Made by a program: the position numbers and the translations under genes. Of a DNA stretch of 20,171 nt, positions 1,420 through 18,256 are shown one piece after another. The notes beneath the pieces are model-generated. The model saw only the letters and a program-made list of their open reading frames with translations. It searched no databases and had not been told where the DNA came from. Location: positions 1 to 20,171 of the IMG/VR virus record IMGVR_UViG_3300031884_000170. The stretch is one strand, 5' to 3'. This stretch comes from a virus. Positions within the stretch are counted from its first letter, which is position 1; each line of letters begins with the position of its first letter.

Positions 1420-4164
1420 TTAAGCAGTGAATGAATATTCGGTAGACCAATTCAGGTCGGCTATGTCCTTGGCCCACACGTCATAAGCAGCGACGCGGAC
1501 CTTGTAGGTGACGCCGACCGTCAGGCCAGTGAGCGTGGCCGTGGCCGCGCTGCCGTCGTAGAACGAAGTGCCTGCGCCAGTTGTCGGGTCAAAACCGGCC
1601 GTGGTGCTGTAGCGCGCCAGGTAGCCAGCAAAGTCGGTAGCCGTGCTGGCTGTCCAGCTGATCGTGCGGCTGGTGCCACTGCCAGAAACTGCGACGCCGG
1701 TTGTGATAGCTGGGGCCGGGTTGCTGACGGCCAGGGTTGCCCAGGCGCCATTGCCTCCAGTGTCGCGGCCACGCACGTTCACGTTGTAGCTGCGCTTCGC
1801 TCCGCCGTCGGTTACCGCATCTGCGTACAGATACCGCACCACAGTGGCCGAGGTGTAAATGGTGCGCAGAAGCACAGTCGACACATCTCGGATTTCCACC
1901 TGGTAATCCGTCGCACGGGCGGTTGCGCCCCAGTTAATTTCGAAGGATGTGCCAACAAAGGCCGATGTGAGCGCAAGATTTGACGGCGCATCGGGCGGTG
2001 AAGGCTGGGCCGTCAGCGTGATCGGGATGGCCGTTACCTCGTCCAGACCTTGGATATAGGTGCCCAAGGCGTTGCGACTGGTGACCTTGATATACAGCGT
2101 CGTGCCAATGTCAGTGGCCGCCACATCGATCTGGGCAAGCGAGTCGTCCAGCCGCATCCATGGATCGCCTGCGCTGTGCGCGGGCGACGTGGTGCCGTAC
2201 AGGGCCCGGCGCAGATAGCCCAGGCTGTAGCGCCCGGCGGCTGTCAACGTAGCGTCGCGATAGCTCATCAGCTCGCCGTTGACCCACACCAGGCTGCGGC
2301 CTGCATCTGCATCGACTTGGCTGACGCTAGCGATCTGCGTGCTACCAGTCAGGTATGCATCCAGCACCTGCACCGGGTTCAGCGACACGCTGGCAAGCGC
2401 CAGGTTGCCAGCCAACAGACCAAGGCGGGCTCGCACGTTGATCTCCGCAATGCGCCGGTAATCTGTGCCCGTCGAGCTGACCCACACGATGGAGCCCCCC
2501 CAGTTGGGACCAGCCGTCACGCCAAGCCACAGCTGTTGAGCATTGCCGGTGGCGGCCGTCGGCATCATCACGGCACGCACGCTGACGGCATCCGGTGGGC
2601 CGCCAGTGTATCCAAAGCCACTGCCGGCCTGGCTAGCTTGTGTCACTGAGCCAGTGACTTGCAGGTCCTCTGCCGTAACTGTGATCGAACTATCATCGCC
2701 AGCTTCCACAATCTCAATGATGCGCACAGAGCGCGCAGACATGTCGATCCGCGAATCCGTGATCTGGACAATGTCCAGTGGCTCAAGCAGGTCGTAATTG
2801 ATGGGCAGGATGAACTTGTATTGCGAGCCCTCCGACATGTACTCGCGAAGCAGCAGTTCGCACACCGTGGCGGCCACGCCTTGGTTCGCAATTTCGTTGG
2901 CCTGCACCACGTCGGGCGCTTCGATCAGTCCAAAGGAATCGATGCTCGCGCTGTCCTCCGCGCTCTCCACTGCAGCCGCGTAATCAAGCGCTCGGTCCTG
3001 GTAAGCAATGCTGACTCTGTTGAAGCGATCAACGGGCGCCAGGCGCTGCTCTTCCACCGGCTCAGAAAAATCGTCATCGGTCAGCGAATAGACCGGGCCG
3101 CTGTATTCAGCTGCGGGCATGTAACTGCCGGTGGTGCTGGTCAGCGCATCCGTGGCCATCGGCACCAACTTGAGCACATTCACGGACCACAGCGGTCGCG
3201 AATGGGTGAGCAAGGCCATTTGCTTCACGTACTCAAAAACGCCTTTCCGCTCGGCCCATACAGGAGAAAACCACAGCCCAGCAGCATCGCACCAGGAGCG
3301 GTAACTACTCAGACCGTCCAGTAGTGAAGCCGGATACCCTGCGCCATACACCGGGTCCAGCAGCAAGTCGCTGATGATGTCGGCCGGGTTCGCGTCCACA
3401 TTGCCGCCACCCACTTGCGCCGGGCCATCAATCTCGAAACTGAGCTGCGGCAGGCCTGCGGCCGCACCCAGCAGCCAATTGGCTGACGCCACATAGGTGA
3501 CACCGCTGTATGCGATGTCCTGGGCAGGGTGTGCAGTGGTCAGGTAGCCCCACTGGGCCTGGCCCAGCGCGCCAGATCCAAACTGCGAAAGGCCGGCCAC
3601 TTGCATGGCGCTGAGAACCTGCACCGTGGTGCTGATTGTGTAAATGATTGTGATCACAGTGCCAACCGACACAGTGGTACCAAAGGTGTACACGCCTGCG
3701 GCCACTGTGTAGTCGGAGATAGTCGCGCCCAGCGAATCCGCCACCGACACAGTGGAGGCCCAGCGGCTGGAGTTGGGCACCGTGATGACCTTGCCAGATG
3801 GCAGGATTTCCGTATCGGTCATCTGGCTGGATGGCAGCGTCTTGGTGGTAGCCACCACCTTGTCCTTGTTCCGCCATACCGCCGTGATGCCGCTGCAGAC
3901 GCCTGCGCACAAGCCCATCAGGACGCTGGCCGTGTAGGTATAGGTGACATTGGTCATGGTGGTGCCGCCACCCTTGCCAGCAGACTGCGAGCTGCGCTGC
4001 TCGATTGCCGTGAAGTCGTCAAACCACAGCAGGTTCGGGCTCACCCGGTTGCGGCCCCACATCAGCGCAATAGGCACGCCCTGGCTGCTCTGTTGCACGC
4101 GCAGTGCGCCCAGGCGTGTTTCGCTGGTGGTAATGTCGTTACCGCCGCCCAGCATGCCGCTCAT
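1420..4164 (-). CDS. tail tip / host-specificity protein (J-like) with two FN3 domains
   Basis: About 914 residues, the large tail-tip protein that closes the tube and carries the fibres. The N-terminus (GVPIALMWGRNRVSPNLLWF) and the central part (DPVYGAG, a YxxxWCDAAGLWFSPVW stretch, RFNRVSIAYQDR) resemble the phage tail-tip domain found in lambda J and the gene-transfer-agent tip protein. The last ~195 residues hold two fibronectin type III repeats, about 721-820 and 821-916 counted from an upstream GTG. Residues about 124-178 are a beta-rich segment that resembles one in the tube protein. The ATG at 4164 is preferred over a GTG at 4170 because it forms a 4-base ATGA overlap with the upstream peptidase gene. 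Lambda J is longer (1132 residues). The position after hub and NlpC genes agrees. Confidence 0.85.
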   Translation of the reverse strand: MSGMLGGGNDITTSETRLGALRVQQSSQGVPIALMWGRNRVSPNLLWFDDFTAIEQRSSQSAGKGGGTTMTNVTYTYTASVLMGLCAGVCSGITAVWRNKDKVVATTKTLPSSQMTDTEILPSGKVITVPNSSRWASTVSVADSLGATISDYTVAAGVYTFGTTVSVGTVITIIYTISTTVQVLSAMQVAGLSQFGSGALGQAQWGYLTTAHPAQDIAYSGVTYVASANWLLGAAAGLPQLSFEIDGPAQVGGGNVDANPADIISDLLLDPVYGAGYPASLLDGLSSYRSWCDAAGLWFSPVWAERKGVFEYVKQMALLTHSRPLWSVNVLKLVPMATDALTSTTGSYMPAAEYSGPVYSLTDDDFSEPVEEQRLAPVDRFNRVSIAYQDRALDYAAAVESAEDSASIDSFGLIEAPDVVQANEIANQGVAATVCELLLREYMSEGSQYKFILPINYDLLEPLDIVQITDSRIDMSARSVRIIEIVEAGDDSSITVTAEDLQVTGSVTQASQAGSGFGYTGGPPDAVSVRAVMMPTAATGNAQQLWLGVTAGPNWGGSIVWVSSTGTDYRRIAEINVRARLGLLAGNLALASVSLNPVQVLDAYLTGSTQIASVSQVDADAGRSLVWVNGELMSYRDATLTAAGRYSLGYLRRALYGTTSPAHSAGDPWMRLDDSLAQIDVAATDIGTTLYIKVTSRNALGTYIQGLDEVTAIPITLTAQPSPPDAPSNLALTSAFVGTSFEINWGATARATDYQVEIRDVSTVLLRTIYTSATVVRYLYADAVTDGGAKRSYNVNVRGRDTGGNGAWATLAVSNPAPAITTGVAVSGSGTSRTISWTASTATDFAGYLARYSTTAGFDPTTGAGTSFYDGSAATATLTGLTVGVTYKVRVAAYDVWAKDIADLNWSTEYSFTA

Positions 4165-4607
4165 GGGCACACCTCTGCGGTGACGCGGTACAGCGGACCG
4201 AGGCGGCTAGAAAAGTCTGGGCCGTCGGCACGGTCAAGAATGACGCGGCCGGCGGGAAGATATGCATGAATCATCTGAGGCCAATCGGTGACGATTGCCG
4301 CATGTGAAAAAGTGCGGCCGAATCGGAAGGTTTGAATATCGCCCGGCTCAGCCGGTGAGCCCGCGGGAACTACCGTGGCGTGCTGATCAAGGCCCATCAG
4401 GTAGCGCTCTTCGGAGCGGTGCAGCATCCAGTCGTAGGGATAGGGCCGGGGGTCCGTCCAGGGGCAAATGCCAGCATCCCGGAACACGCAGCACAGCAGC
4501 ATCAAGCAGTCCACCCCGGCGCCGTGCACGGCAGCGGCATGGTGATAAGGCGTGTTGAGCCAGCGGTGTGCCTCTTTCAGTACCGCGGTTTGTTGGTCTG
4601 GCGTCAT
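4161..4607 (-). CDS. NlpC/P60-family tail peptidase (gene transfer agent g14-like, lambda K-like)
   Basis: 148 residues, a putative cysteine peptidase of the NlpC/P60 fold that would cleave peptidoglycan peptides during tail assembly or DNA entry. The catalytic Cys is C34 in GAGVDCLML, the His is H102 in FSHAAIVTDW, and a third polar residue may be H114 in MIHAYL. An early WLNTPYHH segment matches the family start. It lacks the N-terminal Mov34/JAB domain seen in lambda K, so it is closer to the short form next to DUF2163 genes in gene transfer agents. It starts directly after the hub stop codon (TAG then ATG) and its own stop overlaps the tip gene by four bases, so the three are probably translated together. 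Confidence 0.88.
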   Translation of the reverse strand: MTPDQQTAVLKEAHRWLNTPYHHAAAVHGAGVDCLMLLCCVFRDAGICPWTDPRPYPYDWMLHRSEERYLMGLDQHATVVPAGSPAEPGDIQTFRFGRTFSHAAIVTDWPQMIHAYLPAGRVILDRADGPDFSSRLGPLYRVTAEVCP

Positions 4608-5471
4608 CTACATCACCGTTTCAGGTTTGGGTATGAACGGCGCGCCACGGAAGCGCAGGCGGTTGGAATACTTCGCGCAGCCACTGGAGCCCAGGCTACG
4701 GTCGCAGCCGGGTGTGATCGTGAAGCTGTCGCCCACCGCCGGCGCCGACGGAAACGGATTGAAGAAACTCACCGACCCGTCCACTGCATGCGCTCGCACC
4801 GTCCTCGCCAAGCCCAGCAAAACACCGCTGGTGAACTCAATCACGCCACCAGTGAAGTAAGCCGTAGGCTCAGTGCGTCCCGTCATGATCAGCGCTGCGG
4901 TGCTGGCTGCACGCGCTGTGGCGGACACTGTCCAAGAGGCCCGCGCAATGCCGCAACCGGTGTCGTACAGCGTGTTGAGGCATGCCGACTGAAACACGGG
5001 TGGCACGGCCCGGTTGAATGTCTGGCTGGGCGGCTTGAGCGAGATTTCCAGATTACCGTCGCGCATGGTGACCGGTGCAAGTTGCCCTTGGTAGCGCGGC
5101 AGCACGCCCTTGAGCGTGCCATTCGCATCAAAGTATGCGCGCGACACAAGAAACGTCGCATCGTCCCAGATCCGTGCGCGCATCGCGGCCGCCGGCGTCA
5201 GTGCGTTGATCACGTCAGTAGACCGCGCCTGAATGGTGACCTTGCAGTCGCTCAGATCAATGCCGGCCTTAAAAGTCAGCGTCGATCGGCTCCAGAGCAG
5301 GCCGCCGGCACTGGCAGAGCCCAAGTAGACCGTGGAGCCGTCCACCACGTTGTCCACGCTGGTGGCATACCGCCACACGGATCCTGACGGCTTGGTCACC
5401 GTCAGCAGCTCCACGATTTCAATTTGGCGCGCCGTGGGGAGCCAGGCGGCCAAGGCAGGATGAACACGCAT
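4608..5471 (-). CDS. tail hub protein, DUF2163 / phage BR0599 family
   Basis: 287 residues, a tail-tip hub like the gene transfer agent ORFg13 protein. The N-terminal part (residues about 1-150) is beta-rich and matches the DUF2163 pattern. The C-terminal part has the family ending CDRSLGSSGCAKYSNRLRFR followed by GAPFIPKPE. Five cysteines are present: C76, and two evenly spaced pairs C164/C173 and C256/C265. The pairs resemble the four ligands of the iron-sulfur cluster in lambda tail-tip protein L, so metal binding is plausible. The gene starts three bases after the DUF2460 stop and abuts the peptidase gene, as in gene transfer agents. It is full length for the family. The cluster is an inference; family membership is fairly sure. 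Confidence 0.87.
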   Translation of the reverse strand: MRVHPALAAWLPTARQIEIVELLTVTKPSGSVWRYATSVDNVVDGSTVYLGSASAGGLLWSRSTLTFKAGIDLSDCKVTIQARSTDVINALTPAAAMRARIWDDATFLVSRAYFDANGTLKGVLPRYQGQLAPVTMRDGNLEISLKPPSQTFNRAVPPVFQSACLNTLYDTGCGIARASWTVSATARAASTAALIMTGRTEPTAYFTGGVIEFTSGVLLGLARTVRAHAVDGSVSFFNPFPSAPAVGDSFTITPGCDRSLGSSGCAKYSNRLRFRGAPFIPKPETVM

Positions 5472-10205: not shown

Positions 10206-10622
10206 TTACAGTGTGTTTTTGGAGATCAGGTAGCTGAATCGGTACCGGCTGGTTTTGTCCAGCGCGGTGGCATCCGCTTCAACTTCGGTAAAGCTTGCGG
10301 CCTCGATGCGAACGCTGTCCACCAAGGCCTGCAGGGCAGCGTCTCCCATCAAGACGCCATGGAACGACGCATGGATCAGCTCCGCGCTGGGTGTCGGCGG
10401 GTCGCTGCGCACATGAATGCGCAGTTCAATCTGCAGCGTGTGTTTGTCCATGAGGCTGCTAAATGACTCGATGGCAATCTCACGCGGACTGACATTGACG
10501 CATGGCGTTTCGCTGCGACTCTCAGCCTCTGTGCGCTCACGGAATACAGAGCAGCCCATGGGCACATTGGCCTTGAGTAGCGCATCCAGACGGTCCAGCA
10601 CTTGGGAAAGAACGGTAGCCAT
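10206..10622 (-). CDS. tail terminator / minor tail protein U-like
   Basis: 138 residues, near the 131 of lambda gpU, which caps the tail tube and sets the head-facing end. The pattern fits: an N-terminal helix (VLSQVLDRLDALLKANVP), a CVNVSPREI strand, the strand pair HTLQIELRIHV, a helix with LIHASFHGVLMGDAALQALVD, and a final strand YRFSYLI. It starts in a TGATG with the FII-like gene stop, so translation is probably coupled. The position between head-tail joining and tube genes supports a terminator role. Sequence similarity to lambda U is weak, so the call rests on pattern and order. Confidence 0.68.
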   Translation of the reverse strand: MATVLSQVLDRLDALLKANVPMGCSVFRERTEAESRSETPCVNVSPREIAIESFSSLMDKHTLQIELRIHVRSDPPTPSAELIHASFHGVLMGDAALQALVDSVRIEAASFTEVEADATALDKTSRYRFSYLISKNTL

Positions 10623-10933
10623 CAGGACAGCTTTGTCAGTTTGACGGTGCTGAACACGGCATCTTCCTGCTGTACCAAGTTGGTGCGCAGCTTGTAGGTG
10701 CCGTAAGCGCCATTGCGCAAGACCACCACCATCTCGTCGCGCTTGAGCCCCACCCAGGCAGCCGTTTCCAGCGTCAGGGTGTACTCACGACTGATGTGAT
10801 TGCCGCCGTCAGCGCCCGAATCACCTTCGTCAAACAACACCAGCCCGGCCACCGCTGCAGCCCCTGTGCTGGGGTTCCAGCTCATGGGGTTGCCGAAGTC
10901 GGCCAGGAAGGTGAGCGCATCGGATGCGAACAT
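10622..10933 (-). CDS. head-tail connector, FII-like
   Basis: 103 residues, small and beta-rich, in the place where lambda carries FII (117 residues), which forms the head-to-tail interface. The N-terminal helix (MFASDALTFLADFG) is followed by beta strands YTLTLETAAWVGLKRDEMVV and AYGTYKLRTNLVQQEDAVF, consistent with a beta-barrel connector. It overlaps the U-like gene in a TGATG, and the upstream gene ends 12 bases before it. Sequence similarity to FII is weak; an equivalent connector family could also fit. Confidence 0.62.
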   Translation of the reverse strand: MFASDALTFLADFGNPMSWNPSTGAAAVAGLVLFDEGDSGADGGNHISREYTLTLETAAWVGLKRDEMVVVLRNGAYGTYKLRTNLVQQEDAVFSTVKLTKLS

Positions 10934-10945
10934 GGTGGCGGACTA

Positions 10946-11263
10946 TCAGGCGATGGGGGGCGTGGCTGCGGCGGCGGTCACACCTTGCGCTTGTGCCAGG
11001 GCTGCGACCAAGGTCTGCACCAGGCTTGCTGGATCGCTGCCAGCCAGGGCGGTGACGTTGGCTGCCTTCTCGGCTGCCAGGGCTACATCGCGGTCCTTCT
11101 GACCCGCAAATTCGAGCTTGTGCAGATGGTCTGCAGCATCGGCATCATCCAGCGTGACTTCTTCTCCGCCGGTGTACTGACGCTCAGCCTTGTCACCCTT
11201 GGGACTGATGACGGTAAGGAACACGATGAATCCATCGCGGACAACATATTTTTTACTGGCCAT
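10946..11263 (-). CDS. hypothetical phage protein after the capsid gene
   Basis: 105 residues. The N-terminal half is beta-rich with a charged surface (KKYVVRDGFIVFLTVISPKG, then YTGGEEVTLDDADAADHLHK); the C-terminal half is Ala-rich and helical. AGGAG lies a few bases before the ATG. The place directly after the capsid gene is often held by a decoration, packaging-accessory or head-completion protein, but no family can be named. The N-terminal style (MA-K-K/Y-x-V, a basic start, then an acidic EEVTLDDADA or DEIELDSD patch) recalls the 54-residue gene at 10031-10195, which may mean the two are distantly related or simply similar small beta proteins. Confidence 0.7.
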   Translation of the reverse strand: MASKKYVVRDGFIVFLTVISPKGDKAERQYTGGEEVTLDDADAADHLHKLEFAGQKDRDVALAAEKAANVTALAGSDPASLVQTLVAALAQAQGVTAAAATPPIA

Positions 11264-11345: not shown

Positions 11346-13391
11346 TTAGGGCGTGAGCGCGTCGGACATCATCGAGAACGATGCGGCATGGCGCACACCG
11401 ATGTCGATGGACTGCAGGGCGCGCAGCAGCACGCCGCCGCTCTTGTAGGCTTCCGTGGCGTACGGGTTGGGAACGATCTCCAGCACACCCCATTCGCCGA
11501 TCAGCAACTCACTCCAGGCACCGAAGAAGATCTCGGAGCACACGCCGGAGCTGGTGCCCTTGGTCAGTGTGCTGCGTGCTTGGTTGGAACGGGCAACGGG
11601 GTAGCCGTTTATCTCGCCAGGAGTGCCGGACTGTGCGCCCACTGCCGAGCCGGTCCACAGGTATTGGCCGGTGGTGGATTTCAGCTTCTTGGTGCTGCCG
11701 ATCGTCTTGGCATTGGTCAGGTACGCCAGGTTGGTTTCAGGCGCATTCGCGGAGGTCACCGCTGTTTCCAGATCAATGTAGTTATCGATGCTGACGGCTG
11801 CTCCGTTGGTCCCGCCGATGACCGAGCCGATGCCCGACACGTTGGCAATGCCGCGCGGTGTTGCGCCGGTACCGATGCCGGACAAGGCTGCCAGGTCAAT
11901 GCCCAAGGCCATGGCCGCCAGCATGTCAGCCCGGGCGATCATGTCGATGTCCGGCGTGGCCTGCATCAGCATGTTGCGGGTGATCAGGCTGTAGGTGCCG
12001 ATGCTCTTCATTGCCAGGCTCACCTTGTCGAATGTCGCTTCAGACTCGGTGGTGTCCACGCCTTCCGCCACCCAGAATGTAGAGGTCTGGCCGGTTTGGC
12101 GCGGAATGTCCACATTGCCCACCAGGCCGGACAGCACCGTGGCGCCCAGTTGCATGACGCGGGCCTTGTTGCGCAGCACTTCAATGAAGCTGCCGTCCAG
12201 CAGGTTGGTGGCAGCCAATGTGCCGCCGGTGGTGCCAGAACCGGCGGTGCCCACGGTGTAAGCCGTGCGCAGGTTGGTGGGGACGAAGAATGCCTTGGAA
12301 TCCTTGGGGACGCGGCCGGTGCGCTTGGCGATTTCGTTGGAGCATTCCAGCTCAAACCCAGCACCATCCCATTTTCCGGTCAACGAGGCATTGATCGCTC
12401 GGATCATGCTGTAGCGGGATTTTTCCGAAGTGGACAGGTCCGGGTTGTTGGTGTCGCCGAAATCGACGACGGCCTTGCCGGCCTTCTGGGCGCGTTCCAG
12501 CACCACGTCGGCAGCGGTCAGGCGGGCCTGATCAATGCTTGCGCCGCGTTGGATCAGACCAGTGCGCAGCTCGGGGCTCAGATCGTACTTTCGGGCCAGC
12601 GCATCGATCTCGGTCATGCGGGCGCGTTCGGCTTCTGCGCCGCGCTGCATGGTGGCAGCACCGCCATCGCCGTTGGAGACGTTACCGACTTCCAGATTGG
12701 TACCACCGGTACCGGATGGGGCGGCTTCGCCCGTAACCTGCTGCAGCAGGCGTTGCTTACGTTTGTTCATAGATTGCTCCTGGGGTTGATGAACTGGGGG
12801 GGTGAGTTGCGCCACAGGCGCGGGAGAGTCGGTTGCTTCTCGTTGGAGTTGCACGCCGTTTGCAACGTCAGCGCTGGCATGGCGGCCAACTCCAACGGTC
12901 GGGTCTGCTGGCACGGTGACCAGCGAAATTTCAAGAGGTTCCCAATCGATCGCGGTGATCGTGTCGGCCTCCACGTCTTCCAGCCATTTGTAGACGCGAT
13001 ATGCAAAGCTGACGTTGACCAGAATGTCGTCTTCCACCTGGCCCATGGCCCAGGCGCCGCGCTCATCCTTGCCAAAGCGCACATTGGCCCGGCCAACGCC
13101 GTCCGTGTTGCATTCGATGGACTCGACGACACCGAGCAAGTCATTCATGGAGTGGTTGAACAGCATGGGCATGGTCTGCTGCCGCTGACCCTGGCGCATC
13201 GCACCAGGTGCGTGGCTCAGAATCTCGGTGCCGTACCACATACTGACCGGCTCTTCAGAGCTGAAGGCCAGCGAGGTGGTGCGGGTGACGCTGTCGATCT
13301 TGGCTGCGCGCTGGCCATCAGCGCCGGGCAGCGCGCGCATGGATACCGTGCGGATCTGCGGCACCAGGGTGTCGGGAAGTTTTTTGGCCAT
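11346..13391 (-). CDS. prohead protease fused to major capsid protein (HK97 type)
   Basis: 681 residues with two functions. Residues 1 to about 185 are an HK97-family prohead protease: H80 in MLFNHS, S128 in VNVSFAYRV, then DWEPLEISLVTVPADPTVGV, a very typical ending. A linker (about 186-207) leads to an N-terminal scaffold-like helical region (about 208-330; RMTEIDALARKYDLSPELR) and the HK97 capsid fold (about 350-681; RQTGQTSTFWVAEGVDTTES, ATPDIDMIARADMLAAMALG, GTGATPRGIAN, INGYPVARSNQ). The protease matures the head and the capsid region forms the shell. AAGG precedes the ATG. An internal ATG with a strong ribosome site at codon 208 could produce free capsid protein. Lambda C/D/E are absent, so the head is of another type than the lambda-like packaging genes. 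Confidence 0.95.
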   Translation of the reverse strand: MAKKLPDTLVPQIRTVSMRALPGADGQRAAKIDSVTRTTSLAFSSEEPVSMWYGTEILSHAPGAMRQGQRQQTMPMLFNHSMNDLLGVVESIECNTDGVGRANVRFGKDERGAWAMGQVEDDILVNVSFAYRVYKWLEDVEADTITAIDWEPLEISLVTVPADPTVGVGRHASADVANGVQLQREATDSPAPVAQLTPPVHQPQEQSMNKRKQRLLQQVTGEAAPSGTGGTNLEVGNVSNGDGGAATMQRGAEAERARMTEIDALARKYDLSPELRTGLIQRGASIDQARLTAADVVLERAQKAGKAVVDFGDTNNPDLSTSEKSRYSMIRAINASLTGKWDGAGFELECSNEIAKRTGRVPKDSKAFFVPTNLRTAYTVGTAGSGTTGGTLAATNLLDGSFIEVLRNKARVMQLGATVLSGLVGNVDIPRQTGQTSTFWVAEGVDTTESEATFDKVSLAMKSIGTYSLITRNMLMQATPDIDMIARADMLAAMALGIDLAALSGIGTGATPRGIANVSGIGSVIGGTNGAAVSIDNYIDLETAVTSANAPETNLAYLTNAKTIGSTKKLKSTTGQYLWTGSAVGAQSGTPGEINGYPVARSNQARSTLTKGTSSGVCSEIFFGAWSELLIGEWGVLEIVPNPYATEAYKSGGVLLRALQSIDIGVRHAASFSMMSDALTP
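12768..12781 (-). promoter_or_regulatory. internal ribosome binding site and start for the capsid part
   Basis: AGGAG (12777-12781) stands six bases before an in-frame ATG (12768-12770) that encodes M208 of the protease-capsid fusion. The protein from here would start MNKRKQRLLQQV and have 474 residues, the length and start expected of a stand-alone capsid precursor. This match is better than the site at the gene's own start. Confidence 0.7.
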
Positions 13392-13423: not shown

Positions 13424-15112
13424 TTACTTGCTGTCGTCACCTGCGGCATCGCCGTCGGCTTCAGGATCTGCAGGCGCTGCGGGATCGCCACCTGCAGCGG
13501 GCGGCTGGGCGCCGTCGTCGGCTGGCACTGGCGCCGGCTGACCTTGGCCCTTGTCGTTGACCTGGGCCGGGTCGGTATCGAACACCAAGCCCATGTCGGC
13601 GGCCATGTCGATCTCTTCTTCGCGGCGCTTGAAGGTGTCTTCCACATCGCTGTCCGGTGATGTCTGCGCGATCACATCGCCCACCGTCATGAATCCAGCA
13701 CGCACCGCCATCTTGTAGGCTGCGACCTCCTTGGCCGGATCGATCCAGCTCCAGCCGCGCGGCTTGTAACGCACTGCCTGGTACTTGGCCGAGTTGCTGA
13801 AGTAGTCCGTGCCGACCTTGACTGCGCCCACCAAGACCGCGGCGTCCAGAAACTCTTTGTGGATGTCGTCGCGCAGATTGCGGCACAGGAAACCCTGCAC
13901 CATGCGGTACAGGTCCCGGTCATCGAGCAGGCCCATGCGGCTGCCGCTGTAGTTGCTCTGGCTGTAGTCCCGGCTCAAGCTCTCGTAGCTGACGCCCACA
14001 CCGACTGCCATCTTGCGCAGCATGTAGCGCAGGAATGGGTCCACTGCCGGGTTGGGAGTGCCGGGCGCAAAGCTCGCTACATCTTCACCGGGCAGCAGGG
14101 TCTGCCAGGTGCCCGGCTCGGTATCGATCAGATTGCGGCCAGCTTTCTGGCCGTCGGGGGTCAGCGGCTCGGGGCTGCGGATAAAGCCCACGATGTTGGC
14201 ACTGGCTCGGGCCTTGACGATCTCGGCATCCTCGTAACCGCCCACGTTGTGCAGGGTCTTGAGCGCCGCATGAAACCAGGGCTCGCCGCGCGACTGGGGC
14301 CAGCGCTCCACGATATACAGGTGGATGATGTCTTCGGCGGGCACTCGCACAAAGCGCGAGGGCTCGAAGCTGGTGAACTGGTAGTCGCCCGGGTGCTTGG
14401 GGGAGAACCAGTAGGCCACCGGGCGGTGCCACTCGTCGATCTCCACGCCCATGCGGATGGCGTTGCCGTTCGGAGCCCGCGCCGTCTGCCAGTTGTCCAG
14501 CAGCTGATCGGCCTCCATCACCTCCAGGGCCAGCGGGATAGTGCCGCCGCCGAAGGGTTTGCGGATCTTGCGCACGATCGCTTCGCCTGCGGTCACCAGC
14601 TGCACCATGCACAGCCGTTCGATCTCGGCAAAGCTCAGCAGGCCTGCGACATGGCTGGTGCCCTTCTTGGCCCACTGTGCCCATGCAGCTTCGATGCTGT
14701 CGTTGATCTTGCCCTGCAGCTTGCCGCCGGCACTCATCACCTGGGCCTGCAGGCCGATACCGTTGCCCACCACGTTGTTGACGATCACGCGCACTGCATG
14801 CTTGGCGTATTCGTTGTCTCGCACCAGCTGGCGGCTGCGGGCCCGCAGGATGCGCAGGCTGGTCAGGATCTCGCTGTCGGCACTGGTGTTCATGGCCGAC
14901 CAGTCGCCCGTCAGGCGGTTGACTGCTGCGCCAGCATAGGAGCGCTCTTGTGTCGCCAGGCGCTCGCGCTGGATGGCAGCGCCACGCGCGGCGGAGCGCT
15001 CGGCGTTCCAGGCGGTCAGCACCTGGCTGCGCTTTACGGACAGGTCGGGCACCACGGTGCCAGTGGGCAGCGCGACGCGCGCAGCTGTCTCCCATTTGCT
15101 GGTGGTGTTCAT
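13424..15112 (-). CDS. portal protein, lambda B family
   Basis: 562 residues (lambda B has 533), the dodecameric ring through which DNA enters and leaves the head. Family features: an N-terminal region with ARSRQLVRDNEYAKHAVRVI and a VGNGIGLQAQV stretch, a SFAEIERLCMVQLVTAGEA helix, MEADQLLD, EIDEWHRPVAYWFSPKHPGD, a DIIHLYIVERWPQSRGEPWF stretch, and later VGVSYESLSRDYSQSNYSG-SRMG. The last ~40 residues are acidic, Pro- and Ala-rich and probably disordered. The start makes a 4-base ATGA overlap with the upstream gpW-like gene. It lies between the joining protein and the protease-capsid gene, as in lambda (W-B-C). No defect is visible. Confidence 0.95.
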   Translation of the reverse strand: MNTTSKWETAARVALPTGTVVPDLSVKRSQVLTAWNAERSAARGAAIQRERLATQERSYAGAAVNRLTGDWSAMNTSADSEILTSLRILRARSRQLVRDNEYAKHAVRVIVNNVVGNGIGLQAQVMSAGGKLQGKINDSIEAAWAQWAKKGTSHVAGLLSFAEIERLCMVQLVTAGEAIVRKIRKPFGGGTIPLALEVMEADQLLDNWQTARAPNGNAIRMGVEIDEWHRPVAYWFSPKHPGDYQFTSFEPSRFVRVPAEDIIHLYIVERWPQSRGEPWFHAALKTLHNVGGYEDAEIVKARASANIVGFIRSPEPLTPDGQKAGRNLIDTEPGTWQTLLPGEDVASFAPGTPNPAVDPFLRYMLRKMAVGVGVSYESLSRDYSQSNYSGSRMGLLDDRDLYRMVQGFLCRNLRDDIHKEFLDAAVLVGAVKVGTDYFSNSAKYQAVRYKPRGWSWIDPAKEVAAYKMAVRAGFMTVGDVIAQTSPDSDVEDTFKRREEEIDMAADMGLVFDTDPAQVNDKGQGQPAPVPADDGAQPPAAGGDPAAPADPEADGDAAGDDSK

Positions 15113-15681: not shown

Positions 15682-17796
15682 TTACCAGTTGTTTGCGCTC
15701 CAGCCACTGCGGCGGGGCTGCGGCTGTTGTTGCTTCACGATGGGTCGGGCGGGTCGTACAGGCGTTTGCACAACGGCTTCGGGCTCACCAGGCCCCGGGT
15801 TATCCGTTCCCTCTTTCGGGCTGTCGCCAGCCCCGGCTTCGCTGAGGGGTATTTCTTCAGTGACTTGCTTCGCCGAGCTGGGCAGCTGCGCACGCTGGAT
15901 GGCATCGCCAAACAGTGCCGGCTGGTTAATGGCTTCCTCCTCCACCTCCCAGCGCTCAGTCCGCCACAGATTGATCTTCAGACTGCGGGCAGCGTGCAGC
16001 GCATAGACCTCGCAGTCCAGCGCCTCATTGCGCCGGCCCGATTTGCATTGCCACACCAAGCGACCGCGCACGCTCTTGTGCGGAACCTTGACCTCGGCCG
16101 TGACCTGGTCGTAATAGTCGGGGCGCACTGTGCGCATCCAGTGCATGCGGCCAGGGCCATTGCCATCCAGCTTGATGCGGCCACCCTGCGCATCCACGCC
16201 CAGGATCAGATCCTTTGCGACTTGCGTGCCCACCATGTACGGGCGGATGCCCGAGGGGTGCGGTTTGTGGCGGCCATTGGTGTCAATGCTGATCTTCGGC
16301 GCGCTGAAGACATCCTTGCCGACGTCCGTAGATCTGCCCTTGATCGCCATGAACTGGCGGTTCAGACGGCGGCGCACATAGCTGTAGACCGCGTCCTGCG
16401 TCTGACCGTCCGAGCTGTCGATGCTGACCGCGCGAATGCGCAACATGGCGCCGCTCGCATGCGGGAAGCCACCGGCCAGCAGCTGGTCCAGATCCCACCA
16501 GGCGCCCGACTGCTGCTCATTCAGCGCGCCGTCGTCGTCCCAGTGAACCATCATCGTGCGGCCGGGGATCTCACCCCACCACACCAGCCAACTTTCTTCT
16601 CCACGGCCCCATGCCCTGATCACAATGGCCAGGCGGTCGTGCTGCACGTCCACGCCGGCCGTTAGAACGACTCCACCCCATGGCACGGTTAGCTCCGCAT
16701 ATTCCTTGGCACGGGCCCGCAGCTTGTCGGCATCCGGCACCGTGCTCTGGTACGCATAAGCCAGGCCCTCGGTGTTGTTGCGGAAGCTGCGCAGCTTCGT
16801 GTCGTCACCCTGCGCCATTGCATGCTGGGCGGTCAGGTGCTTCTCCACCAGGCGGGCCAGCAGCGAGCCGGGGAACGGGCTGTACAGCTCATTGATGTAG
16901 AACCCTGCAATGCCGTGGAACGCGGCCGAGGCCTTCCATACCCCCAGGCGCACAGCACGGGTCTTCTCGGCATCGGTCCAGAGGCTGCCGCAATGGGGGC
17001 AGCAGTACCGGGCCGACTCCGGCACCGAGTCGCCAAACACCTCATGCGACTGAGCGGCGTCGTGCGTCCAGCGCACGTTCTCCCAGGACAGCACCTGCAG
17101 CTCGTTGCATGATGGGCAAGGCACCCAGAACTGGCGCTGGTCACTGCTCTTGTAGGCCGCGTCGATCCGGCTGAAGCCTTCGATCGTGGGCGTGCCGCCG
17201 AAGATCACTTTGCGCCTGGTGTATGACTTGGTCCGCTCCTCCAGGAGCGTGATCGTGTCGCCCTGGTCCTTCACGTTCGTGTTGCAATCGTCCGGCTCTT
17301 CGATGGCCACCACAGGAGCGGGTGTGGATTTCACTGAGCTGGGGCTGTTGGAGCCCACCAGCTTGAGGAAGCCGCCGGGAAAGCTCTTGAAGTCCCAGCG
17401 GTTGTCGCGGTCACGCACTTTATGGATGGGGATGCGCGTCGCCAGCCGGGGCGTGACCTCCACCATTGGGGTCAACTTCTCGTCATTGAACTGCTTGGCC
17501 GCCTCGGTCTTGGCGAACATGATGATCATCGGCACGGGGTCGATGTCAACGCGCCGCCCGATGTAGTTCAGCAACACGCCGTCGGTCCAGGCTACCTGCG
17601 CCGACTTGCGGCAGATCACCTTGAAAACTTTGGGATCGTCCAGCGCCTCGTGGATGCCGGCCACCCATGGGGTGATGTTGGGGTTATAAATTCCCGGCTT
17701 AGCCGAGGCCTTGCTCGACATCCGCCTGTGCTGCTTGGCCCAGTCCGTGGTCGACAGCTTCTCTTGCGGGGCGAGCACCTTCACCAACCGGCGCAC
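15682..17796 (-). CDS. terminase large subunit, GpA family
   Basis: About 704 residues (lambda A has 641). It packages DNA: an ATPase pulls the genome and a nuclease cuts it. Counting from an upstream ATG at 17889: a Walker A-like RKSAQVAWTDG (94-104), Walker B-like VVAIEEPD (193-200), a four-Cys zinc-like group C258/C261 and C297/C300, and nuclease acidic residues in GVDVQHD (D414), SIDSSDG (D491) and DCEVYALHA (D625). The family start VLAPQEKLSTTDWAKQHRRM follows. The ATG at 17889 gives 31 residues that are alternate-frame translation of terminase small and has no ribosome site, so a GTG at 17796 or 17781 is more likely. The exact start is uncertain. It ends in a Pro/Gln-rich tail. Confidence 0.94.
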   Translation of the reverse strand: MRRLVKVLAPQEKLSTTDWAKQHRRMSSKASAKPGIYNPNITPWVAGIHEALDDPKVFKVICRKSAQVAWTDGVLLNYIGRRVDIDPVPMIIMFAKTEAAKQFNDEKLTPMVEVTPRLATRIPIHKVRDRDNRWDFKSFPGGFLKLVGSNSPSSVKSTPAPVVAIEEPDDCNTNVKDQGDTITLLEERTKSYTRRKVIFGGTPTIEGFSRIDAAYKSSDQRQFWVPCPSCNELQVLSWENVRWTHDAAQSHEVFGDSVPESARYCCPHCGSLWTDAEKTRAVRLGVWKASAAFHGIAGFYINELYSPFPGSLLARLVEKHLTAQHAMAQGDDTKLRSFRNNTEGLAYAYQSTVPDADKLRARAKEYAELTVPWGGVVLTAGVDVQHDRLAIVIRAWGRGEESWLVWWGEIPGRTMMVHWDDDGALNEQQSGAWWDLDQLLAGGFPHASGAMLRIRAVSIDSSDGQTQDAVYSYVRRRLNRQFMAIKGRSTDVGKDVFSAPKISIDTNGRHKPHPSGIRPYMVGTQVAKDLILGVDAQGGRIKLDGNGPGRMHWMRTVRPDYYDQVTAEVKVPHKSVRGRLVWQCKSGRRNEALDCEVYALHAARSLKINLWRTERWEVEEEAINQPALFGDAIQRAQLPSSAKQVTEEIPLSEAGAGDSPKEGTDNPGPGEPEAVVQTPVRPARPIVKQQQPQPRRSGWSANNW

Positions 17797-18256
17797 CAGG
17801 GCCGCGCAGCTCGGGGTCGTATCGAGCAAGTTGGGATAGGGTGTCACGAATATGTTCTTCCACCAGTGCGGCGTCCAGATCGATGCCATACAAGGCGTCG
17901 ATCTCGGTTTTGAGTTTGTCGCCCAGGCTTGTCAGCTCGGTGCGGAAGGCGCCCACCATCTGCTGCAGCATGGGCTCCAGCTGGGCCAGGCTCACCACCT
18001 GGCCTTTCTTCTCGGCCAGCATGAAGAGCTTGAGCTCACGATCCACGCGCTCGGTCTGGGCGCGCTCGCGGGTCAGGTCCATCTCGCCATCGTTGGAGAC
18101 ATGGCCGGCAGCAGCGCCCCGCAGCTTGCGGATGTACGCGACGGTGATGTCGTCCAGGCTGGTGGTCTTCCAGGCAATGCCCAGCTCGGCCATGTGTTGG
18201 CTGACCGCCTGTTGCGACAGGTCGAGGCGTTTGGCGATGTCTTTTTGTGTCGGCAT
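17699..18256 (-). CDS. terminase small subunit, Nu1-like
   Basis: 185 residues (lambda Nu1 has 181), which recognises the packaging site and recruits the large subunit. Residues 1-28 form a helix-turn-helix (MPTQKDIAKRLDLSQQAVSQ) as in Nu1; residues about 58-92 are a charged helix starting MDLTRERAQTERVDRELKLF, and the rest is helical (VGAFRTELTSLGDKLKTEID). The last ~32 residues (after RYDPELR) are Gly/Ala-rich and overlap the large subunit in another frame. They look like read-through of a lost stop rather than conserved protein. The ribosome site is weak (AGGG about 11 bases before ATG). The 107-base gap upstream may hold the packaging site. Confidence 0.83.
   Translation of the reverse strand: MPTQKDIAKRLDLSQQAVSQHMAELGIAWKTTSLDDITVAYIRKLRGAAAGHVSNDGEMDLTRERAQTERVDRELKLFMLAEKKGQVVSLAQLEPMLQQMVGAFRTELTSLGDKLKTEIDALYGIDLDAALVEEHIRDTLSQLARYDPELRGPGAPVGEGARPAREAVDHGLGQAAQADVEQGLG

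Follow-up and report, generated by a model that had tools for sequence, protein, structure and literature searches.

The window, a 20,171-base virus record, carries a head operon on its minus strand. The genes run in the order small terminase, gpA-type large terminase, phrog_5774 head-tail joining protein, lambda-type portal, a fused protease-capsid gene, gpFII-like attachment protein and tail terminator (Table 1). A preliminary description, made from the sequence alone, had placed an HK97-type protease and the capsid protein in one frame, and profile searches bear this out, on the minus strand. Peptidase_S78 (Pfam) matches residues 61-166 of the fused protein at 2.2e-8, above the curated cut-off, and Phage_capsid matches residues 393-675 at 2.7e-38. 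PHROG 617, 'major head protein', matches end to end, residues 30-677 aligning with positions 19-623 of the 626 in the profile (1.9e-130). His80, Ser128 and Glu154 are invariant across 63-73 relatives, and this alignment marks them as candidate catalytic residues.

The domain layout is clear in an AlphaFold model of the fused protein (63-sequence alignment, mean pLDDT 80): residues 32-160 fold as the protease, 162-242 are disordered and include Met208, 244-304 form the scaffold helices, and 402-680 adopt the capsid fold. The top Foldseek match of this model is 8gta, the capsid of phage R4C, followed by RcGTA, D3 and HK97 (1ohg among the matches).

Table 1. Features of the head operon that bear on the fused gene
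Feature	Position	Strand	Remarks
Large terminase (gpA ATPase + nuclease)	15682..17889	minus	
Portal protein (lambda family)	13424..15112	minus	directly upstream of the fused gene
Fused gene: S78 prohead protease, disordered linker, scaffold (delta-like) domain, HK97-fold capsid	13391-11346	minus	681 aa, ATG start
Protease half	12771..13391	minus	folded domain at residues ~32-160, then disordered linker to codon 207
Internal Shine-Dalgarno sequence, AGGAG	12777..12781	minus	
Internal start codon ATG	12768..12770	minus	codon 208
Predicted short product, scaffold-capsid precursor	11346..12770	minus	474 aa
Scaffold (delta-like) helices	12480..12662	minus	residues 244-304; AlphaFold model; placed like the HK97 delta domain
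Head-tail attachment protein (gpFII-like)	10622..10933	minus	

A probable start site inside the linker

The internal site reads CCCAGGAGCAATCTATGAACAAACGT, with AGGAG-CAATCT-ATG at 12781-12768 on the minus strand. This is exactly what the preliminary description had reported: AGGAG, six bases, then ATG at codon 208 (12770), opening a 474-residue product. It had also called the internal site better than the gene's own start. That holds in this gene, where the own start has a 4-nt Shine-Dalgarno sequence (SD; GAAAGG, duplex -2.6 kcal/mol) and the internal start has a 5-nt SD (duplex -6.6 kcal/mol). Across the family the advantage is milder, with the internal SD longer than that of the own start in 68 members, equal in 37 and shorter in 39, in a comparison where the own start was picked so as to favour it. 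A single AGGAG-ATG match is little proof by itself. AGGAG-N4-9-ATG occurs six times on the minus strand of the window, two of the others (at 11263 and 1403) being ORF starts, and the significance of the match comes from its conservation. Met248 also appeared as a start when duplexes were scored without spacing limits, and was rejected as a false positive of that scoring.

A tblastn search with the fused protein returned 211 phage records, 53 of which span at least 80% of the protein. These records include Mica, Mano, Persinger, Alexa, VP882, phiHAP-1, ep3, Murka, RcCronus, R4C and the cyanophages S-CBS1 and S-CBS3. A first set of 205 loci, with 199 complete fused frames, came from scans of viral and bacterial contigs and from phage records around the gene; it was dereplicated to 148 sequences sharing fewer than 50% of their 4-mers. 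The linker between the VGxGR motif of the protease and the scaffold helices varies in both length and sequence in these relatives, with one Met kept; in an alignment of 73 sequences, no other residue near it in either direction is shared by a majority. Within the 70 residues that follow the protease domain, an in-frame ATG is present in 146/148 non-redundant fused relatives. An SD of at least 4 nt, at a spacing of 4-11, precedes a linker ATG in 134/148, against 88.9 +/- 4.4 (maximum 100) when each linker was recoded synonymously with the gene's own codons in 200 shuffles. For an SD of at least 5 nt the count is 75/148, against 47.2 +/- 4.2 (maximum 58). Part of the SD excess is due to the linker amino acids, because the synonymous null already reaches 60%.

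Chance occurrence of the SD is ruled out by this null and by two further controls. An SD of at least 4 nt precedes 150/222 in-frame linker ATGs, compared with 25/191 out-of-frame linker ATGs and 237/1760 (13%) of in-frame ATGs elsewhere in the genes. The SD core is found in all three codon phases, encoding KE, EE, KG, RG and other pairs, so it is the RNA, not the peptide, that is kept. This, with a linker that is itself unconserved, also rules out the SD as a by-product of a conserved peptide. Purines make up 80-95% of positions -12 to -8 upstream of the first linker ATG, an ATG chosen blind to the SD. Among the 11 closest relatives the AGGAG is invariant, save for one CTGGAG.

A second set was collected with only the scaffold-capsid halves of R4C-like and VP882-like members as queries, to avoid favouring fused genes. 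Its 160 loci comprise 154 fused genes and 6 that are cut by a contig end; split protease and capsid genes with the same capsid number 0 among the 154 capsid-fetched loci that have upstream DNA. An SD of at least 4 nt is present in 55/75 new non-redundant members against a null of 31.6 +/- 3.4. This repeat rules out a sampling bias towards fused genes, and since every locus with upstream DNA is fused and the SD again exceeds its null, both the long open frame and the internal start look selected. In the first set about 9% of members lack an SD, and in the second 27% do. The preliminary description had held that an unconserved internal ribosome site would refute it; the site turns out to be kept in relatives whose identity spans about 30-90%, and its conservation does not depend on the peptide. 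Judged by sequence, the predicted internal start signal is kept in hundreds of distant phages.

The surrounding mRNA also carries the signature of a start site. The mean folding energy of 50-nt segments is -6.0 kcal/mol at the internal ATG, versus -13 to -14.5 kcal/mol at 60 nt or more on either side. A low-GC linker that mimics a start is ruled out, as the dip is centred on the ATG and not spread across the linker. Codons 2-6 after the internal ATG contain 40% A, close to the 39% at the genes' own starts and twice the 20% that follows ATGs of the capsid domain (p about 1e-50). Thirty members without an SD, many of them cyanophage-like, retain both the structure dip and the A-rich early codons. 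Any initiation in these members must be independent of an SD. In the cyanophage-like branch the internal ATG, its A-rich context and the open mRNA persist without a Shine-Dalgarno sequence, which suggests that this branch starts internally without one in its hosts.

Two probable starts and the dose of protease

The site and its conservation, the start-site signature, the strict fusion and the domain layout point to one gene with two in-frame starts, which very probably yields a bulk scaffold-capsid precursor and a rarer, protease-bearing full-length chain. Initiation at 13391 would produce the 681-aa protease-scaffold-capsid chain, and initiation at 12770, where AGGAG, six bases and ATG lie in an unstructured linker, would produce a 474-aa scaffold-capsid precursor equivalent to HK97 gp5. 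We infer that the strong internal site gives an excess of plain precursor and the own start fewer full-length chains. The two products would co-assemble through their identical capsid and scaffold parts, and the protease would enter each prohead covalently, on a minority of the shell subunits. After assembly it would cut away linker and scaffold, so that mature capsid protein alone remains. In this scheme the nested start would set the protease dose, and the fusion would guarantee delivery. HK97 proheads contain ~415 capsid and ~60 protease copies, and those of D3 contain ~90 protease copies (PMC12749128). A fusion with a single product forces a 1:1 ratio and so could not give an HK97-like ratio of capsid to protease.

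It is quite unlikely that the gene makes only a polyprotein, with every subunit produced as protease-scaffold-capsid and trimmed later, and with the internal AGGAG-ATG unused. Published descriptions agree with such a scheme, the 684-aa product of Murka being called a 'single propeptide' (PMC10892653) and MD8 being described as placing three functions in a single gene (PMC8508860). The fusion is strictly kept, and the R4C capsid shows just its C-terminal part, as cleavage would give. However, if only a polyprotein were made, the junction should show no conserved SD or ATG, no A-rich codons and no structure dip, and all of these are seen. It would also place ~415 protease domains in each prohead, versus ~60-90 in HK97 and D3 (PMC12749128).

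The internal start may instead be a relic, left over from an ancestor whose capsid gene was separate until the stop codon upstream of it was lost; it would still work and have no present role in dosage. Unfused relatives do have a strong capsid ribosome binding site just past the protease gene. In the distant Faecalibacterium phage Roos, the protease and capsid genes are separate, 17 nt apart, and AGGAGG precedes the capsid ATG. A relic should have decayed among relatives at 30-40% identity, yet the SD, its spacing and the open mRNA are kept while the surrounding peptide changes. We find this highly improbable as an account of present function; where origin is concerned, it fits the two-start explanation. 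Intragenic SD-like sequences have been proposed to slow ribosomes, and the site does sit between two folded domains, but a pause that lets the protease fold before the capsid is made would need no ATG spaced as for a start and no A-rich codons 2-6, and would leave the signature in SD-less members unexplained, which makes it barely credible.

Phage R4C is a member of the family, with the fused gene at 998-2884 of its locus and a 629-aa product. Its PDB chain (8gta) covers only residues 362-629 of 629, and its virion has 415 capsid copies (PMC10276861). The word 'protease' is absent from the structure paper, as is any capsid N-terminus or precursor size from its main text (PMC10276861). Pfam misses the protease domain in R4C as well, and the fusion therefore appears to have been overlooked in that phage.

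Comparison with other phage and viral head genes

The preliminary description had likened the locus to lambda C/Nu3, with the capsid itself as the short product, and the comparison fits, as the scaffold helices and the complete capsid fold all lie within the 474-aa part. Both have one frame, a full-length protease product, an in-frame internal start (lambda nu3 is annotated at 5132, inside C) and an assembly protein that shares the C-terminal half. There are several differences. The short product of lambda is scaffold only and its capsid, E, is a separate gene, whereas here scaffold and capsid are joined; lambda C is annotated as an S49-family peptidase, and the protease of the fused gene is S78. 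The lambda Nu3 start has little SD and structured RNA, and the internal start of the fused gene is the opposite on both counts. With both its products predicted, the fused gene would work like lambda C/Nu3 by analogy, and it is not a member of that system by descent, given the S78 protease and the capsid in frame.

Herpesvirus UL26/UL26.5 also uses nested in-frame products, which supply a protease fusion in small amount and an assembly protein in large amount. It differs in that UL26.5 has a transcript of its own and in that the shorter protein is a scaffold rather than a capsid protein. HK97 gp4/gp5 has the same arrangement of a prohead protease followed by a capsid precursor with an N-terminal scaffold domain and the same capsid fold. 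In HK97 the protease and capsid are two separate genes (PMC8508860), while here they form one frame with the second start kept inside.

In the phrog_133 fusions of Pseudomonas phage MD8 and enterobacterial prophages, a single gene likewise covers protease, scaffold and capsid, and a conserved AGGA(G)-ATG marks the junction. They differ in having a ClpP-type protease of unrelated fold, a Mu-like capsid and a junction peptide that is itself conserved. An SD of at least 4 nt, AGGA(G) at 9-10 nt from the junction ATG, is present in 31/31 non-redundant ClpP-capsid fusions against a null of 16.0 +/- 2.6, and these fusions show the same dip in mRNA structure at the protease-scaffold junction. The RNA evidence is weaker here because the junction peptide is conserved too. 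The nested start of phrog_133 is apparently independent of the one in the S78 fusions, and finding this arrangement again with an unrelated protease points to a rule of design and not to chance.

Single-gene protease-capsid fusions are already known from Murka (PMC10892653), MD8 (PMC8508860) and Rhodobacter phage cluster RcC (PMC8601537), and nested starts are known from lambda C/Nu3. For the internal capsid start in these fusions we found no report in the literature searched, where subscription journals were thinly covered, and it is annotated in 0/22 phage records examined around the fused gene. A nested, dose-setting capsid start is probably a general and hitherto unannotated rule of single-gene phage heads, present in S78-capsid fusions of many bacterial phyla and separately arisen in ClpP-capsid fusions, so that hundreds of phage records would lack their most abundant structural precursor. 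If true, this would explain how phages with one gene for protease, scaffold and capsid escape a 1:1 ratio of protease to capsid, and how the protease gets inside the shell with no targeting interaction needed. Gene models would also need correction throughout a large family, whose members include the laboratory phages VP882, ep3 and R4C.

Records classed as plasmids, from Klebsiella, Pseudomonas and Roseomonas, also carry fused protease-capsid genes, and at least some of these records are probably phage-plasmids. S-CBS1, S-CBS3 and the Roseobacter phages CRP-406 and CRP-821 have ~200-310 additional residues before the protease domain. In CRP-821 this addition has only a weak match, to DUF5824, and a separate portal is unannotated within the stretch read. 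In Paenibacillus phage Pd_22F, a gene at 2411-4450 of the locus joins an S78-type protease to a Mu-like capsid (phrog_4523), and AAGGAG precedes a possible internal TTG/ATG start in its linker.
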